From Sediminibacterium sp. (lineage in GTDB: Bacteria; Bacteroidota; Bacteroidia; Chitinophagales; Chitinophagaceae): 16,717 nucleotides of DNA. The stretch lies in assembly GCA_028288645.1 (NCBI GenBank), contig JAQBNJ010000316.1, positions 1 to 16,717 on the forward strand, in the 5' to 3' direction. Positions 2,547 to 16,717 of the stretch are shown here, one piece after another (position 1 is the stretch's first letter; every line of letters begins with the position of its first letter). The notes below the pieces were generated by a model, which saw nothing but the letters and a program-made list of their open reading frames with translations, was not told the DNA's origin and ran no database searches. Made by a program: the position numbers and the translations under genes.

Positions 2547-4931
2547 ATGATCAACACATCTGTCTATGAATCTTTCTTTGCAAACTCGCTAAGCGCCCTC
2601 TTTTTACTAAAAACAGATGGAACCATTGTACGTGCAAACCAGGCCGCCTGTGATATGCTTGGTTACACAGAACCTGAATTGCAATTATTAAAAACAGAGG
2701 CATTAATAGATACATCACAATCGGTCGTTACTGAATTGAGAGCCGAGCGGTTGGCGAAAGGGAAAGCGAAAGGAATTATTATGGCTGTCAGGAAAAATGG
2801 AGAAAAATTTCCTGTAAAATTATCCACGGCAACCATCCGGACTGAGACGGGTGAATCTATGACAAGCGTGATCGCCACTGATATTTCTGAGCAGCACGAC
2901 CGGCAGGAAAATTTAATGCTCTTACTGGAAGAAACGAAAAAACTTCACCAGAAAGAAGAAGACAGCCGCATATTGCTTGAAAATGTACTGGACAGTATAA
3001 CCGATGGTTTCTTTATTGTTGACAGGGAATGGAAAATACTTTTCTGGAACACGGCCGCCGAGAACATCCTCAGGAAAACAGAACCCGAACTCATAGGCAA
3101 AAACCTTTGGGAAGAATTTCCTGATCTCGTTATGTTAAAAGAAAACGCGGAGTTTCCAAAACTATACGATAAAAACCAATCGATTCGTTTTCGCGAGTAC
3201 TTTCCCAAATACAAAATATGGGCAGATGTAAGCGCCTATCCGTCTGAAAAAAATATATCTGTTTATTTTAAAGATGTTACCGAAGTAAAGAATCTCCGCA
3301 CAATGGAAAGGCTGGAGAGGGAAGTGCTTGAAATGAATGCAAGGCCGGAAGCGTTGTTAGAAGATACACTTGATTTTTACCTGAAGGAAATACAGCAGAT
3401 CCACAAAGGCATGATCTGTTCAGTACTCCGTTTAAAAGGTAACCGCCTCTACCATTGGTCAGGTCCGGATCTGTCGAAAAAATATATCGACGGCATTGAG
3501 GGGGCTGAAATAGGAGATAGTGGAGGCTCTTGCGGAACCGCTGCTTTCAGGAAGGAAAAAGTAGTTGTGGTAGATATTGAGAACGATCCGCTATGGGCCG
3601 ATTTTAAGCATATTGCAGCAGAAGAAGGTCTAAAAGCCTGCTGGTCCTTTCCGCTTATCGATTCGAATAACCATGTAATGGGCACATTCGCTATTTATTA
3701 CAAACGCGTAAAAGCACCAACACGTGAAGAAGAAAACACACTCGAACGCGCCAAGAATCTTTTAATGATCATTCTTGAGAACAGGATGTCGGTAGAAGCG
3801 GTAAAATCCAGTATCCAGAATTACGATATGGTTGCCAAAGCAACCAATGATGCAATATGGGACTGGAGCGTGGAAACCAACGAAGTTACCAGGACCGGCA
3901 AAGGATTGGAAGTGCTTTTTGGCTATAAAACTGAGGAAGCCGCAGCAGAAGACAATTTCTGGAACAAACGCATACACCCCGATGACCTGCATGGTTTCTT
4001 GCAGATACAGTCTGCCATATTGAACAACCCATCTGAATTGTATTGGGAGGATGAATATCGCTTTAGAAAAAAAGATGGAACCTATGCATACGTGTTTGAT
4101 AAAGGATATATCATACGCGATGCAACCGGTAAAGCTATCCGCGTGATTGGTGCTACCCGCGACATATCTGACAGAAAGGAAAGTGAGGCACTGTTGCTTG
4201 AATTGAATAACCGGCTAAAACAAAGAGCCGATGAGCTGGCAGCATCGAATGTTGAGTTGGAAAGATTTGCCTATATCGCGTCACATGATATGCAGGAGCC
4301 TTTGCGGATGATCACAAGCTTCCTGCAATTGTTCAAGAAGAAGTACGAGGACCACCTGGATGAGACCGCAGAACAATACATCCATTTTGCAGTAGATGGC
4401 GCGGACCGGATGAAAAAACTGATCATGGACCTTCTTGAATATTCCCGCGTGGGTTCCAATAAAGATGATCTCACCGAAATAGATACGAACCAGTTGATAC
4501 AGGAAGTGCTCAATGTATTTGTTAGCAGGATGGCAGAAATGCGGGCAAATATTGTTCTGAATAAATTGCCGGCGATCAAAGGCAACAGGACACAATTGTC
4601 CCAACTGTTTCAGAATCTTATCGGGAATGCATTGAAATACCATACAGGCGAGTCACCCCGTATAGAGATTGAAGGAAAAGAAGAAGAACATTATTTCCTT
4701 TTTAGTGTGCGTGACAATGGAATAGGGATCAAACCTATTTTCTTTGAAAAAATATTTGTACTGTTCCAACGCCTGCATCATAAAAATGAATACAGCGGAA
4801 CAGGTATCGGCCTGGCGATCTGTAAAAAGATCGTTGACAAACACGGTGGCAGGATCTGGGTTGAATCTGAACCGGGAAATGGAAGCTGTTTTTATTTTAC
4901 CATCAGTAAAACTGTTGAAGATTACCGGTGA
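2547..4931 (+). CDS. Multi-sensor histidine kinase (PAS-PAS-GAF-PAS-HisKA-HATPase)
   Basis: A soluble sensor kinase of 794 residues with no membrane segment or signal peptide, so it reads a cytoplasmic signal. Domains in order: PAS (about 5-115, ending SVIATDISE), short coiled coil, PAS (145-250, ending VYFKDVTE), GAF (265-412, with SCGTAAF and the NDPLWADF / GLKACWSFPL pattern), PAS-fold with PAC (425-545, ending VIGATRDISDRKE), coiled coil, HisKA, HATPase_c. The phospho-accepting His is H580 in FAYIASHDMQEPLRM, the H-box seen in bacteriophytochrome-like kinases. ATP-lid boxes: N690/N694 in QNLIGNALKY, D723-G727 in DNGIGI, and G751-G755 in GTGIGLAI; all catalytic residues look intact. No ligand can be named, and the GAF lacks evidence of a bilin site. 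The ATG at 2547 has no Shine-Dalgarno. The next gene, 173 nt downstream on the same strand, carries a receiver and is a natural partner. Confidence 0.92.
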   Translation: MINTSVYESFFANSLSALFLLKTDGTIVRANQAACDMLGYTEPELQLLKTEALIDTSQSVVTELRAERLAKGKAKGIIMAVRKNGEKFPVKLSTATIRTETGESMTSVIATDISEQHDRQENLMLLLEETKKLHQKEEDSRILLENVLDSITDGFFIVDREWKILFWNTAAENILRKTEPELIGKNLWEEFPDLVMLKENAEFPKLYDKNQSIRFREYFPKYKIWADVSAYPSEKNISVYFKDVTEVKNLRTMERLEREVLEMNARPEALLEDTLDFYLKEIQQIHKGMICSVLRLKGNRLYHWSGPDLSKKYIDGIEGAEIGDSGGSCGTAAFRKEKVVVVDIENDPLWADFKHIAAEEGLKACWSFPLIDSNNHVMGTFAIYYKRVKAPTREEENTLERAKNLLMIILENRMSVEAVKSSIQNYDMVAKATNDAIWDWSVETNEVTRTGKGLEVLFGYKTEEAAAEDNFWNKRIHPDDLHGFLQIQSAILNNPSELYWEDEYRFRKKDGTYAYVFDKGYIIRDATGKAIRVIGATRDISDRKESEALLLELNNRLKQRADELAASNVELERFAYIASHDMQEPLRMITSFLQLFKKKYEDHLDETAEQYIHFAVDGADRMKKLIMDLLEYSRVGSNKDDLTEIDTNQLIQEVLNVFVSRMAEMRANIVLNKLPAIKGNRTQLSQLFQNLIGNALKYHTGESPRIEIEGKEEEHYFLFSVRDNGIGIKPIFFEKIFVLFQRLHHKNEYSGTGIGLAICKKIVDKHGGRIWVESEPGNGSCFYFTISKTVEDYR

Positions 4932-8338: not shown

Positions 8339-8396
8339 TTCAGGCCGCTTTCGTGATTACTGTTGATTTGGTCACGCCGATTTAGCGTCCCGACCG
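8339..8396 (-). repeat. GGTCGGGACGCT repeat, split copy overlapping a gene end
   Basis: On the minus strand this contains CGGTCGGGACGCT (8396-8384) and, 33 nt further on, AAGCGGCCTGAA (8350-8339). Both words also occur at 15823-15848, there separated by a single base. The first word lies inside the 520-residue gene and encodes its last residues (GRDAKSA), with the TGA at 8374-8372. The longer spacing suggests an insertion or a diverged internal duplication in this copy. Confidence 0.6.
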
Positions 8397-9934
8397 ATGG
8401 CCTCAATATATTTTTGCCTGATAACATTCTGCACATGCTGGTCATTGATCTTGCTTTCTAACCATGAAATAATATCGAGATACATAAATGCCCGGCTTTC
8501 CAAACGGCTCTTCTCCAAAGGTTTCAATTCGGCCAATAATTTTTCAAACTGAGGTTTGAGTTGCCTGGGTGATAAACGGAACGAACTTCTTAAGAACCCA
8601 AATATCTTTTCTTCCACCGTACTCAGATTCTGCATTTTGTACATAAAGCGGTAAACGGATTTTAATAAATATTCCAGCAGATCAAAATTTCCCAATTCAT
8701 AATGTGCAATAAGATGTAGCAAACGGGCGTAACACTGCAGATCGGTGCGCAGGTCTACTTTCCAGTTGATGATCTTGTTCAGATAATCAATGCTCTTGTC
8801 AAAATCGCCACTTCCAAAATACAATGAAGCGATCTTGTAATAGAATACCAATATGCGATGGCGGTCCATATAGATCTCGTATTCGGCGAGCTTCTCTTCA
8901 ATATACGGAACCAGTTCGAGGCCTTCACTGAACGTGCCTTCCATAAAATGCTTATTCAGCCGTGCAATATTCAGGTAAATAAAAGTTTGTATCAGGTTGT
9001 TTCGGTTCTGTTGTATCACCGGCGTTTCAATAAACTTCTCAAACACATGAATGGTATCATTGAATTTCTGGTAATTACGCAGGTCAAAATGTGCGCTCAT
9101 CAGATTGTGCAGGCCTTTTATATAATGCGCGGTTTCTATCTCTATCATTTTCGGATCCGCATCAAACAGGTCAACCCATTTCTGGCAATAACGGTAATAG
9201 CCCAAAAAATTCTGCGTAATGAATGCGTGCCAGCAATAGCATTGATACAGGTACAACCGCTCATAAAAACTTTTGCAATCCTGCGTTTGCTGTATAGCTT
9301 CAGTCTGTAGGAATGCATCTACAATAGCTGTGTCTTCTGCATTTCTTGCATGGCCATTCTTGATGTACCAGCTATACAATTGCAAAGAAACATTCGATAA
9401 CGAGCCAATCAGTGTTACACGATGATTGATCTCATCCACTTCACTACTCAGTTTATCTGCCCGGTCCTGCATACTTCTTGTAATGTGCAGCGACTCGATC
9501 TTTTTCTCCAGGAAAAGAACCTGTAAAATATAGGTTACCTGGTTATTGGCCCTTGCCATATCCTTTACCCGGTCGAGGATCTTCAAACTTTGTAAATAAA
9601 GCCCCTTATTATAAAGCAACCGCGCAAAATCGAGTTGTTCATGTAACTGCAGGTCGATGTTTTCTTCCTGGTTCAGCAAACGGAGGCTGGCCAGGATCTC
9701 CCTGTATAAATGCGCTTTGAGATTGGAGAGCTGTTGTTTCTGGATGGACGGATTTTTAACTAACAACTGTTCTTCATCATATTGCTTCATTTTCTCCAAA
9801 GCATCGAACAACTGGATCACTTTCAGGTCGCCGGAAGCCGTATTCCGGGTCATATAGAGCTTAAAATTCCGTTTCTCGGACCTTTCGAGCGACTGAACCA
9901 GCTGAAACAAAGCATCGGTAGAACGGTTGGGCAT
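8372..9934 (-). CDS. All-helical TPR-like protein of unknown function
   Basis: A 520-residue cytoplasmic protein with no signal peptide or membrane segment. I recognise its type only as a conserved Bacteroidota hypothetical: the N-terminal pattern LFQLVQSLERSEKRNFKLYM, followed by a 'LFDALEKMKQYDEEQL' helix, recurs in such proteins. The rest is rich in Leu, Tyr, Lys and Glu and reads as successive amphipathic helix pairs (for example KGLYLQSLKILDRVKDMARA and FGSGDFDKSIDYLNKII), like degenerate tetratricopeptide repeats, which suggests a scaffold or protein-binding role. There is no catalytic motif. The C-terminal seven residues come from a dispersed repeat. The gene is divergent from leuA across 216 nt with a 9-bp dyad, so shared control is possible but functional linkage is unproven. 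Confidence 0.8.
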   Translation of the reverse strand: MPNRSTDALFQLVQSLERSEKRNFKLYMTRNTASGDLKVIQLFDALEKMKQYDEEQLLVKNPSIQKQQLSNLKAHLYREILASLRLLNQEENIDLQLHEQLDFARLLYNKGLYLQSLKILDRVKDMARANNQVTYILQVLFLEKKIESLHITRSMQDRADKLSSEVDEINHRVTLIGSLSNVSLQLYSWYIKNGHARNAEDTAIVDAFLQTEAIQQTQDCKSFYERLYLYQCYCWHAFITQNFLGYYRYCQKWVDLFDADPKMIEIETAHYIKGLHNLMSAHFDLRNYQKFNDTIHVFEKFIETPVIQQNRNNLIQTFIYLNIARLNKHFMEGTFSEGLELVPYIEEKLAEYEIYMDRHRILVFYYKIASLYFGSGDFDKSIDYLNKIINWKVDLRTDLQCYARLLHLIAHYELGNFDLLEYLLKSVYRFMYKMQNLSTVEEKIFGFLRSSFRLSPRQLKPQFEKLLAELKPLEKSRLESRAFMYLDIISWLESKINDQHVQNVIRQKYIEAIGRDAKSA

Positions 9935-9978: not shown

Positions 9979-10059
9979 CCAAATTTAACGGGTTTATAGA
10001 CTGTAAAATACCATCAATTTTGATTACCAGCCCCTTATATAGTAAAGTATATTCGGTAT

Positions 10060-10120
10060 GGCAGGCTATCATATTTGTTATTAAAGGCAATCGATAACAA
10101 ATGTAAATAGCCTGCCTTTT
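10060..10120 (+). promoter_or_regulatory. Terminator-like hairpin in the leuA leader (possible attenuator)
   Basis: GGCAGGCTAT (10060-10069) pairs perfectly with ATAGCCTGCC (10107-10116). An inner pairing, ATTTGTTAT (10073-10081) with ATAACAAAT (10094-10102), extends it over a 12-nt loop. TTTT follows at 10117-10120. No gene enters from upstream on this strand, because the neighbour is divergent, so a terminator here would act on the leuA transcript itself. The leuA ATG is 30 nt further on. A weak -7-like TATATTCG lies at 10048-10055, but its TTTG (10019-10022) is 25 nt away. If it is used, transcription would begin close to the stem, making this a 5' mRNA hairpin instead. Confidence 0.55.
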
Positions 10121-13439: not shown

Positions 13440-14558
13440 ATGGAAAAAAAGATCGCAGTAATATTAGGAGATGGCATCGGCCCCGAAGTAACCCAACAAT
13501 CTATCAAGGTACTCAATGCCGTAGCGCTGCGTTTTGGCCATACATTCGAATATAGTTATGGCATCATGGGCGCGGATGCCATTGATAAAACAGGTAATCC
13601 ATTGCCTGATGAAACCATCGAAACCTGTTTGCAGAGTGATGCCATTTTATTCGGAGCCATCGGCCACCCCAAATATGATAACGACCCTACTGCCAAAGTG
13701 AGGCCGGAGCAGGGTTTATTGAAGCTGCGTAAAGAACTGCAGTTGTTTGCAAACATCAGGCCCATCAGTACCTACCAATCACTGCAACATTTATCGCCTT
13801 TAAAGAGTAAACAACTGAAAGGTGTTGACTTTGTCATTTTCCGCGAACTGACCGGCGGTATTTATTTTGGGAAAAAAGAATTGAGTGAAGATCAAACCTA
13901 TGCATCTGATCTATGCGCTTATAGCAAAAGTGAAATTGAACGTGTATCACATCTTGCGTTTCAATATGCACGAAAAAGGAAAAAGAAATTAACGTTGGTA
14001 GATAAGGCCAATGTGCTGGAAACATCACGCCTCTGGCGCAAAGTGGTGCAGGAGATCGCTTCGGAATACAGTGATGTAACGGTTGATTACATGTTTGTTG
14101 ACAATGCCGCAATGCAGATCATTTTAAATCCCGCACAATTCGATGTCATACTTACAGAAAATATGTTTGGCGATATCATCAGCGATGAAGCAAGTGTGTT
14201 GAGCGGTTCCCTGGGTTTATTGCCTTCGGCTTCGGTTGGAAATAAGACAGCTTTGTTTGAACCGATCCATGGTTCTTATCCGCAGGCTGCGGGAAAAGAT
14301 ATTGCGAATCCATTGGGGTCGATCTTGTCTGCCGCCATGCTCCTGGATCATTTCCAGTTAACGCATGAAGCCACCGCCGTACGTGCCGCAGTGGCCTGGA
14401 CCCTGGCGAATGGATTTGTTTCTAAAGATATTGATGCGATCAATAACTATTCAACAACCGCTATCGGCGACCTGATCACAGATCATATTGAACGCAATAA
14501 AGATAGTGACAGCAGCAGCAGTAGTAACGCGAGCCTGAACCAGTCGACGATCATATAA
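13440..14558 (+). CDS. leuB: 3-isopropylmalate dehydrogenase
   Basis: NAD-dependent oxidative decarboxylation of 3-isopropylmalate to 2-ketoisocaproate. It belongs to the isocitrate/isopropylmalate dehydrogenase family: GDGIGPEV at 10-17, substrate arginines R97, R107 and R135 (FRELTGGIYFG), catalytic Y142 and K189, metal aspartates D221, D245 and D249 (NMFGDIISDEAS), and the NAD-site stretch EPIHGSYPQAAGKDIANPLG (274-293). The family is usually about 350-360 residues; this one is 372 because of a C-terminal tail from about residue 354, rich in Ser/Asn, encoded by AGC/AGT repeats. The tail lies beyond the fold and is probably disordered. It is the last gene before the ilv leader and is followed by a palindromic repeat. 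Confidence 0.96.
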   Translation: MEKKIAVILGDGIGPEVTQQSIKVLNAVALRFGHTFEYSYGIMGADAIDKTGNPLPDETIETCLQSDAILFGAIGHPKYDNDPTAKVRPEQGLLKLRKELQLFANIRPISTYQSLQHLSPLKSKQLKGVDFVIFRELTGGIYFGKKELSEDQTYASDLCAYSKSEIERVSHLAFQYARKRKKKLTLVDKANVLETSRLWRKVVQEIASEYSDVTVDYMFVDNAAMQIILNPAQFDVILTENMFGDIISDEASVLSGSLGLLPSASVGNKTALFEPIHGSYPQAAGKDIANPLGSILSAAMLLDHFQLTHEATAVRAAVAWTLANGFVSKDIDAINNYSTTAIGDLITDHIERNKDSDSSSSSNASLNQSTII

Positions 14559-14560
14559 CT

Positions 14561-14630
14561 GTTTTAAATGTTGAATTTTAAATGTTGAATGGAGCGTTCA
14601 TTTAACACTTAGCACTCAAAATTTAAAATA
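14561..14630. repeat. Palindromic repeat, AAATGTTGAAT-word family, after leuB
   Basis: Two tandem copies of TTTTAAATGTTGAAT (14562-14590) face an imperfect inverse, ATTTAACACTTAGCACTCAA then AATTTAAAAT (14600-14629), over a short loop. It starts 2 nt after the leuB stop and could form the 3' hairpin of the leu transcript, separating it from the ilv unit. Confidence 0.7.
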
Positions 14631-14645
14631 AATAAAAAATAGTTC

Positions 14646-14676
14646 TTTGTTTTTTGAAAAGGTGGGAGTATTTTCG
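14646..14676 (+). promoter_or_regulatory. Promoter for the ilv leader, Bacteroidota type
   Basis: TTTG at 14646-14649 and TATTTTCG at 14669-14676, 19 nt apart. This matches the Bacteroidota -33 TTTG / -7 TAnnTTTG pattern with one mismatch in the -7 element. The predicted start, a few nt downstream near 14681-14685, leaves a leader of only about 10 nt before the leader-peptide ATG at 14693, as expected for an attenuator. Confidence 0.6.
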
Positions 14677-14692
14677 TTTCAACAAATCATTC

Positions 14693-14785
14693 ATGTTGAA
14701 GAGCAGAACAAATAATGCAAACTCAGTTATCACGATAATTATTATTGTGATCGTCATTATTATTCCTGCACTGCATGGAGGATGA
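14693..14785 (+). CDS. Ile/Val-rich leader peptide of the ilv attenuator
   Basis: A 30-codon reading frame, ATG to TGA, that starts MLKSRTNNANS. Residues 12-24 are VITIIIIVIVIII: nine Ile and three Val in 13 codons, interrupted only by Thr. It ends PALHGG. No short chance ORF is expected to look like this, and it sits directly before a strong terminator and the ilvE-ilvD genes. It is the counterpart of E. coli ilvL, whose peptide likewise carries a Val/Ile run ending in IIIP; the resemblance may be convergent. Scarcity of charged Ile or Val tRNA would stall the ribosome between 14726 and 14764. Leu is present only at positions 2 and 27, so leucine should have little effect. The peptide itself is hydrophobic and presumably has no further role. 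Confidence 0.85.
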   Translation: MLKSRTNNANSVITIIIIVIVIIIPALHGG

Positions 14786-14819
14786 GTTTATACACGCTAA
14801 AAAATACTAAGCATATAAG

Positions 14820-14847
14820 CCCCGCCTCTAAAAAGGCGGGGTTTTTT
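14820..14847 (+). terminator. Intrinsic terminator of the ilv attenuator
   Basis: CCCCGCCT (14820-14827) pairs perfectly with AGGCGGGG (14834-14841) over a 6-nt loop, followed by six T (14842-14847). It lies 34 nt after the leader-peptide stop and 59 nt before ilvE, so it would stop transcription before the structural genes when not prevented. A competing pairing, TGGAGG (14776-14781) with CCTCTA (14825-14830), could act as a weak antiterminator. Confidence 0.9.
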
Positions 14848-14849
14848 AA

Positions 14850-14892
14850 TACCCACCCCCAACCCCCTGAAAGAGGGCTTAAAGAATGGGGT
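14850..14892. repeat. CCCC-rich palindromic repeat before ilvE
   Basis: Outer ACCC (14851-14854) faces TGGGGT (14887-14892), and inner CCCCCT (14863-14868) faces AGAGGG (14872-14877). It begins 3 nt after the terminator T-run and ends 14 nt before the ilvE ATG. It resembles C-rich/G-rich intergenic repeats I associate with Bacteroidota. It could affect ribosome access to ilvE. The remaining parts of 14559-14906 hold the leader described above; nothing else was seen there. Confidence 0.55.
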
Positions 14893-14906
14893 AAAAACAA
14901 CAAATT

Positions 14907-15818
14907 ATGGCAACCTATTACAAAGAGAACACACTAATCTATCTCAACGGCGCTTTTGTAAAAGCATCGGAGGCGAAAATGGATTTTTATAGCCAGTCGT
15001 TCCATTATGGCTATTCTGTTTTTGAAGGGATCCGTTCTTATAAAACGGTAAATGACGAAACGAGGATATTCAAAGCAATGGAACACTTCGATCGATTGAA
15101 AGCATCAGCCGAGGCGTTGAACATGCCGTATACGTATACAACGGAAGAACTGATAGATGCAACGTATGAGTTACTCGCTAAAAATAATTTACAGGATGCC
15201 TATATACGTCCCGTTGTGTATGCACCGGCGAATATGAGTTTTAACCTGAACACCGAATCTTTTATAGTAATAGAAGTTTGGGAGATGGCGCCATTTCTCG
15301 GCGATAAATTATTACGCGTGATGACCTCGACATTCCAGCGTCCGAATCCGAAAGGATTTAAGATCCATGCGAAAGCTGCGGGCCATTATGTGAATTCCAT
15401 ACTGGCGAGTCATGAAGCAAAAGGACAGGGTTTTGATGAAGCGTTGTTAACCGATATGAACGGTTGCGTTGCAGAAGCGCCGGGTGCTAATGTGTTCTAT
15501 GAGAAAGATGGAAAATTAGTTACACCCGGTTTAGGAAATATTCTTCCCGGTATCACGAGAGCAACCGTATTGGAATTATGTGCTGAATTAAACATTCCGG
15601 TTGAAGAAAAGATGTTTGTAAAAGAGGAGATGTATGGTGCAGATGCGGCTTTCTTCTGCGGAACAGCGGCAGAAGTAATTGGTTTGCAATCATTGGATGA
15701 TAAACCATTCATCATGCCATGGGAAAGCACCGTGAGTAAGTTGATCCAGGATGCATACAAAAACCTGATCGTAGAAAACAAACAGGAATTGGTGAACGAG
15801 ATATCGGGTGTTGAATAG
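14907..15818 (+). CDS. ilvE: Branched-chain amino acid aminotransferase
   Basis: PLP enzyme of fold type IV that interconverts Leu, Ile and Val with their 2-keto acids, using glutamate/2-oxoglutarate. It has 303 residues, the usual length. FHYGYSVFEGIRSY near the N-terminus is the class IV signature region. The Schiff-base lysine is K156 in KIHAKAAGHYVNS, and E190 in GCVAEAPGANVF is the residue that contacts the pyridine nitrogen. PGITRATVLELC and FFCGTAAEVIGLQ are also conserved. The start ATG at 14907 is the first in frame after the CCCC repeat, in an A-rich context with no Shine-Dalgarno. It is the first structural gene behind the Ile/Val attenuator and serves the last step of all three pathways. 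D-amino acid aminotransferase is less likely, given the branched-chain neighbours. Confidence 0.95.
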   Translation: MATYYKENTLIYLNGAFVKASEAKMDFYSQSFHYGYSVFEGIRSYKTVNDETRIFKAMEHFDRLKASAEALNMPYTYTTEELIDATYELLAKNNLQDAYIRPVVYAPANMSFNLNTESFIVIEVWEMAPFLGDKLLRVMTSTFQRPNPKGFKIHAKAAGHYVNSILASHEAKGQGFDEALLTDMNGCVAEAPGANVFYEKDGKLVTPGLGNILPGITRATVLELCAELNIPVEEKMFVKEEMYGADAAFFCGTAAEVIGLQSLDDKPFIMPWESTVSKLIQDAYKNLIVENKQELVNEISGVE

Positions 15819-15935: not shown

Positions 15936-16717
15936 ATGGCGAACGAAATAAACAAATACAGTAAAACACTGACACAGGATATCACACAACCTGCCGCCCA
16001 GGCAATGCTGTATGGTATCGGCTTAACTGACCATGACCTTACAAAAGCGCAGGTGGGTATAGTTAGCATGGGTTATGATGGCAACACCTGCAACATGCAC
16101 CTGAATGATCTTGCCAAATTGGTGAAGCAGGGTGTATGGGATAATGAAATGGTTGGGTTGATCTTTAACACGATCGGTGTGAGTGATGGTATGAGTAACG
16201 GAACCGATGGCATGCGTTATTCATTGGTGAGCCGCGATATAATTGCTGATTCGATAGAAGCTGTTTGCGGCGCGCAATATTATGATGGAGTGATCGCATT
16301 GCCGGGCTGTGATAAAAATATGCCGGGATCAGTGATGGCGATGGGTCGTTTGAATCGCCCTGCTATTATGGTGTATGGCGGAACGATCGCACCGGGACAT
16401 TACAAAGGGCAGGACCTGAATATTGTTTCTGCGTTTGAAGCCCTTGGGCAAAAACTCGCAGGTAATCTGAATGATGAAGATTTTAGGGGGATCATTCAAC
16501 ATGCTTGTCCCGGTGCGGGTGCTTGTGGTGGAATGTATACTGCAAACACGATGGCATCTGCTATTGAAGCATTGGGAATGAGTTTACCGTATTCATCATC
16601 CAATCCTGCATTGAGTGAGGAGAAACAGAAAGAATGTTTAGATGCCGGTAAAGCAATAAGATTATTATTGGAAAAAGACATTAAGCCAAAAGATATCATG
16701 ACAAGAAAAGCATTTGA
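15936..16717 (+). CDS. ilvD: Dihydroxy-acid dehydratase, 3' end beyond window
   Basis: Dehydrates 2,3-dihydroxyisovalerate and its Ile-pathway analogue to the 2-keto acids. The frame opens at the ATG at 15936 ([12 protein letters not shown]) and stays open to the edge, giving 260 complete codons of the usual 550-570. Fe-S ligand cysteines are C52 (GNTCNMH), C125 ([10 protein letters not shown]) and C197 ([17 protein letters not shown], starting at C191), with D126/K127 next to the second. [17 protein letters not shown] is the other family signature. Whether the cluster is [2Fe-2S] or [4Fe-4S] cannot be told. It follows ilvE by 117 nt and is probably in the same attenuated transcript. In related genomes ilvB, ilvN and ilvC often come next; they are outside this window. 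Confidence 0.95.

Follow-up and report, generated by a model that had tools for sequence, protein, structure and literature searches.

A stretch of 16,717 nucleotides from the Sediminibacterium sp. contig JAQBNJ010000316.1 (here 'the window') very probably carries a ribosome-mediated transcription attenuator for an Ile/Val operon that includes ilvE-ilvD and, by comparison with the relative L007, probably ilvB-ilvN-ilvC-ilvA. Such an attenuator would almost certainly let the bacterium turn on its Ile/Val genes only under shortage of Ile/Val. Established here are the parts of the device, their conservation, their alternative pairing in silico, their geometry and their linkage to the pathway. The initial annotation had read the region as an Ile/Val leader-peptide attenuator controlling ilvE-ilvD, and this reading is well supported by family-wide conservation, linkage to ilvD, an antiterminator and the geometry. 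Both genes named in it do lie downstream; the regulated unit is probably longer, as the order past the leader in L007 is ilvE, ilvD, ilvB, ilvN, ilvC, ilvA (ilvB to ilvA identified by NCBIfam, ilvD placed through L081, on a contig of equal length, 756144), which is the Ile/Val pathway.

Leader region between leuB and ilvE

In the window, leuA-leuC-leuD-leuB lie upstream of the leader. The end of leuB is at 14558 and the branched-chain aminotransferase gene ilvE (14907-15818, Pfam Aminotran_4) starts at 14907, so that promoter, leader ORF and hairpin all fall inside this gap; the dihydroxy-acid dehydratase gene ilvD follows as a 5′ part (15936-16717) cut by the window end. All these features are on the + strand. 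The promoter consists of TTTG (14646-14649), a 19-nt spacer and TATTTTCG (14669-14676), and the pair fits the Bacteroidota form, TTTG-N19-TAnnTTyG. A strict match to TTTG-N18-21-TAnnTT is found in the upstream regions of 31 of 57 aligned leaders, compared with 2.1% of shuffled regions, leaving 26 leaders without a strict match. The promoter-like pair noted previously is confirmed, with the form of a Bacteroidota promoter rather than a sigma-70-like one. A sigma-70 reading is not supported, because the only match of the promoter scan in this stretch sits at 14602, against 2.3 expected by chance.

The leader peptide ORF runs from the ATG at 14693 to the TGA ending at 14785 (30 codons plus TGA) and encodes MLKSRTNNANSVITIIIIVIVIIIPALHGG. 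Its sensor run holds Ile or Val in 12 of 13 codons and is followed by P-A-L-H-G-G, whereas the best other 13-codon stretch in the six frames of the window has 8 Ile/Val. Among 3000 first-order Markov sequences with the length and composition of the gap none reached 12 (maximum 9), which places the density of the 30-codon ORF described at the outset far above chance. Leader ORFs of such shortness are easily overlooked by gene callers. Leucine had been called almost absent from the run, and it is indeed a minor residue across the 57 leaders, whose 627 run codons comprise 295 Ile, 200 Val and 36 Leu. Direct reading bears out that no Shine-Dalgarno sequence precedes the leader ATG, and ribosomes of Bacteroidia are reported to fail to recognise such sequences (PMC9976891). 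An ATG is located 10-23 codons upstream of the run window in 53 of 57 leaders, the exceptions being L010, L024, L031 and L057. The leader start codon of L010 (the same as L019) is ATA, as against ATG in its close relative L009, which could be a non-ATG start or decay.

The intrinsic terminator (14820-14847) is built from the arms CCCCGCCT (14820-14827) and AGGCGGGG (14834-14841), which enclose a 6-nt loop and precede a run of six T (14842-14847), and it ends 59 nt upstream of ilvE. Pairing is perfect over 8 GC-rich base pairs, just as the initial annotation had it, while a simple terminator scan returned 0 sites in this stretch. The stem covaries in relatives, with 6 of 9 pairs changed on both sides (0/500 shuffles as high). 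Hairpin onset is 17-39 nt past the stop codon (n=56), outside the footprint of a terminating ribosome. Past the terminator, at about 14850-14895, there is a C-rich and then G-rich stretch (ACCCCC...GGGGT); pieces of the form CCTCCCC...GGAGGGG are seen near the corresponding position in L009, L010 and L018, perhaps as a dispersed repeat.

Distribution of the leader in the family and the phylum

We compared 66 loci upstream of ilvE orthologues, made up of the window locus, 12 contigs (5 of them Chitinophagaceae) and sites in genomes of the same family. Three ilvE-like paralogues in the window's own genome (L002-L004) were left out of this set, and no leader is listed upstream of them. Of the 66 loci, 62 have an Ile/Val-rich leader with a hairpin after it, counting L005, whose hairpin was missed by the finder and recognised by eye. 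In the other four (L020, L050, L055 and L065, the last assessed by where the upstream frame ends) leuB immediately precedes ilvE and no leader is present. Omission of four duplicates and of L014, which contains Ns, from the 62 gave the 57 aligned leaders. The alignment behaves as had been anticipated for an attenuator, both among the closest relatives (L005-L008) and across the family: the Ile/Val run is kept, its flanks drift and the terminator is conserved. A side observation concerns L007, where an ORF at 3109-4566 in the leu gene cluster resembles an ABC ATPase (best NCBIfam match ModF, below cut-off) and directly precedes a 376-aa ORF at the place of leuB.

A covariance model built from the window's family (R1) was then searched against 147 family genomes, accepting leader matches at E<=0.001 and ilvD matches at E<=1e-60. 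The leader was matched in 85 genomes, ilvD in 99 and both in 80. Put differently, the leader occurs in 80/99 genomes with ilvD, being absent from the remaining 19 in this search, and in 5/48 without it (Fisher p ~1e-16, ignoring relatedness). In 77 of the 80 genomes that have both, leader and ilvD share a strand and the leader is no more than 2.5 kb upstream, at less than 300 nt in 28 and at 300-2500 nt in 49; the exceptions are G047, G113 and G004, the last with its leader upstream of an unrelated gene. Four of the five genomes with a leader and no ilvD are assemblies of at least 400 contigs (G142, G076, G043, G135), and the fifth, G115, has a weak match (E 0.00099). The order leuB-leader-ilvD in L072, L074, L084, L087 and, with a weaker match, L075 shows the leader still accompanying the operon when ilvE is missing from this position. 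A plain search for the pattern GGAGG ... CCGCCTC ... GGCGG found it in 64/147 genomes, some of these evidently by chance, and a reversed control was found 8 times in 7 genomes.

Similar short leader ORFs are found upstream of ilvA, ilvN, thrA, hisG and pheA elsewhere in the phylum. Across 392 Bacteroidota genomes, 67 were matched by R1 at E<=0.01. Among the 20 best matches outside the family, 18 combine a sensor peptide with its cognate gene (L103 and L105 do not). From 50 weaker matches 40 were fetched, 23 of which are a leader with a cognate gene and 17 are not; the remaining 10 include L076, a Phe leader, and L078, which is not a leader. This yielded 42 leaders whose sensor residues match the downstream pathway, including the Phe/Tyr leader L076 of the window's own family. 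Their downstream genes, assigned by NCBIfam or Pfam, or by a tblastn match to a gene with such an assignment, are ilvE/ilvD (11), ilvN (5), ilvA (10), thrA (7), hisG (7) and pheA (2). Examples of the sensors are MNLLQLHHHRHHHTCSQARW upstream of hisG (L094), MTINNTTIITIITTGKYFGGK upstream of thrA (L102) and FYYFFFYFSFPEGGG upstream of pheA (L076).

Alternative pairing of leader and terminator

The layout proposed initially, a leader ORF followed by a terminator, holds in both of these elements and was missing an antiterminator, which we supply here. Region 2, the antiterminator strand, lies within the final leader codons (UGGAGG, 14776-14781) and can pair with CCUCUA (14825-14830); a second helix joins GUUUAUA (14786-14792) to UAUAAGC (14814-14820), at -14.4 kcal/mol for the window antiterminator. 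The two 3′ strands form region 3 (UAUAAGC...CCUCUA, 14814-14830), which overlaps the 5′ arm and loop of the terminator.

Stalling was simulated by placing a ribosome at the last sensor codon, its front edge assumed to be 9 nt further. In such folds, before the 3′ arm exists, the probability of region 3 pairing with region 2 exceeds 0.8 in 55 of 56 leaders; the failure of L047 probably comes from the run finder counting its C-terminal V-I-V-L. Moving the ribosome to the stop codon lets the terminator form in silico in 56/56. At equilibrium the terminator prevails in 51/56 leaders even when the ribosome is stalled, so the antiterminator must win kinetically and the order of folding must matter. 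The geometry is of a matching kind. The gap from the last sensor codon to the antiterminator has a median of 12 nt in the family (n=56, keeping at least five values of -16 to -18 that are probably run-finder artefacts as for L047) and of 9 nt in the other set of leaders (n=41), which is roughly where a stalled ribosome would end. The GAGG-type strand begins 6-21 nt upstream of the stop codon in 54/57 leaders and at +1 in one (the pattern was not found in two), which puts it roughly within the footprint of a terminating ribosome.

Since the antiterminator varies too little inside the family to covary clearly (2 pairs changed on both sides, 145/500 shuffles as high; 4/500 by covariation score), we turned to swapping partners across families. 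The set of 41 leaders, all but one belonging to other families, excludes L101, in which no hairpin was picked up by the finder. Own pairs of region 2 and region 3 average -13.6 kcal/mol, as against -9.2 for swapped pairs (sd 0.36), and 0/2000 permutations were as low; several of the 41 are closely related, and they therefore represent fewer independent cases than 41. Within the family (n=56) the values are -16.1 and -15.0 kcal/mol, again with 0/2000 permutations as low. Across families, complementarity of the antiterminator is maintained while its sequences change.

The arrangement suggests the following course of events, in which the transcription start site, ribosome stalling, termination and regulation are what we infer from the parts. 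Transcription would start at about 14680, and the leader would be translated without a Shine-Dalgarno sequence. When Ile- and Val-tRNAs are charged, the ribosome would get to the stop codon (14783) and mask region 2 (GGAGG, 14777-14781), leaving the CCCCGCCT/AGGCGGGG hairpin to end transcription. When Ile or Val is scarce, the ribosome would stall in the run with its front edge about where region 2 begins. Region 2 would then be free to pair with CCUCUA, and GUUUAUA with UAUAAGC, before the 3′ arm of the terminator is synthesised, and with the antiterminator formed RNA polymerase would continue into ilvE. When folded with no ribosome, 50 of 54 leaders pair region 2 to region 3 and the other 4 pair it to upstream sequence, and a protector hairpin is not evident in this test, which does not separate Escherichia coli ilvL from the family. 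In a similar test without a ribosome, region 3 is paired with anything upstream at P>0.5 in 54/56 family leaders and 31/41 of the other set; the same test gives 0.86 for ilvL, 0.78 for hisL, 0.52 for thrL, 0.49 for leuL and 0.10 for trpL of E. coli, and because of these values it does not discriminate. We dropped the claim of a variant without a protector hairpin, as ilvL is much alike in the no-ribosome test.

The sequence GGAGG is present in 50/57 family leaders, and its partner is the anti-SD-like CCUCC in 38/57 (CCUCU in the window). GGAGG is ruled out as a general hallmark of Bacteroidota leaders, as just 6/41 leaders of the other set have it. A broader hypothesis, which we regard as unlikely, is that a single modular attenuator lineage runs across the amino-acid operons of Bacteroidota, swapping only its sensor codons (Ile/Val, Ile, Thr/Ile, His, Phe/Tyr); the antiterminator strand could then be a perfect SD because ribosomes of the phylum ignore SD sequences, and ribosomes with an exposed anti-SD might compete for the strand.

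Competing readings and known attenuators

There are other possible explanations for the Ile/Val ORF and its hairpin. The hairpin sits 3′ of leuB and would also stop read-through from it, and it might be a mere 3′ terminator of the leuA-leuB transcript next to which the ORF is incidental. This is very improbable, as the leader and a promoter conserved in many relatives intervene between leuB and the hairpin, and leader and hairpin track the ilv genes across the family; moreover, direct reading of 14848-14906, between hairpin and ilvE, finds no TTTG, so ilvE would be without its own promoter of that type. We give just as little credence to the ORF being a functional small hydrophobic (membrane) peptide, with the RNA switch secondary or absent. 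The run is hydrophobic, and a V/I run with P-A-x-x-G-G recurs in many relatives, but the N-terminal half of the peptide drifts among them, the G-G codons fall on the antiterminator strand, and in other families the sensor residues of similar leaders are His, Thr/Ile or Phe/Tyr, in keeping with the operon.

The strong structure of the leader (fold z = -5.0, 0/200 shuffles folding as well) would also fit a ligand-binding riboswitch or T-box in place of a translating ribosome. We consider this exceedingly improbable, as conservation in the run follows codon positions: position 2 is the most conserved and position 3 the most variable (mean entropy 0.43 vs 1.43 bits), as a translated run would show. 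Neither the window nor any of 16 related loci has an Rfam match at gathering score. The best match below threshold is Arrc14, an Actinobacillus sRNA family, at 32.1 bits against 99, and the only leader families below threshold are Thr_leader (RF00506, 25.1 bits) and Phe_leader (RF01859, 21.5 bits) over 14730-14850; with a gathering score of 55 for each, membership in either was rejected.

The ribosome-mediated attenuator can be set beside E. coli ilvL, the leader of ilvXGMEDA (NC_000913.3 3950322-3950420) and thus of the same pathway, with the peptide MTALLRVISLVVISVVVIIIPPCGAALGRGKA. Its run ends in VVVIIIP (VVVIIIPP), as in several family members, and its UGCGGGG, which starts 6 nt past the final Ile codon, has its complement, CCCCGCA, further down in the terminator arm. 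The leader here differs in its Bacteroidota promoter and its start without Shine-Dalgarno, in the rarity of Leu in the run (ilvL has three Leu codons) and in its antiterminator strand, GGAGG rather than GCGGGG. VVVIIIP and the layout are held in common, in a run too short and low in complexity to tell common descent from convergence. In other phyla, ilvB uORF attenuators are described as ilvB-II (Corynebacterium), ilvB-OMG and ilvB (PMC10272879); they share a uORF rich in branched-chain amino acids upstream of an ilv gene and, for ilvB-II, a terminator stem, whereas their sequences are other ones and they lie upstream of ilvB.

Occurrence in Bacteroidota had been presented as unusual. The attenuator reading itself is supported, but the find is less surprising than first suggested, because leader-peptide attenuation of amino-acid operons is already reported for Flavobacterium psychrophilum (PMC9723704) and attenuation is therefore known in the phylum as a general phenomenon. 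That case is alike in phylum, proposed mechanism and position upstream of amino-acid biosynthesis operons; it concerns a different family, and in the accessible part of the report the operons are not named and antiterminators not described. Small ORFs reminiscent of leader peptides are also reported in Bacteroides thetaiotaomicron (PMC7366714). Among the open-access literature matches listed, we recognised no paper describing this attenuator of the ilv genes, or its antiterminator, in Bacteroidota. The attenuator is anatomically complete and conserved, and since ribosomes of the phylum do without Shine-Dalgarno sequences, it offers a way to study this classic control in their absence; its description also provides named, testable regions.

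Some minor observations concern the leuA region of the window. Reading of the 216 nt upstream of leuA revealed no Leu-rich leader and a hairpin only: at about 10048-10120 a promoter-like TATATTCG precedes an extended hairpin (GGCAGGCTAT...ATAGCCTGCC) and four T, which might serve to control leuA separately. Comparable stems also seem to occur upstream of leuA in some relatives, among the matches listed. Divergent to leuA is a 520-aa ORF (8372-9934, - strand) with a weak TPR match below cut-off, which also adjoins leuA in L186 and L187. A paralogue of this ORF with 33% identity lies downstream of the orphan Ile/Val leader in G004, hinting at a link between the 520-aa ORF and branched-chain amino acids.
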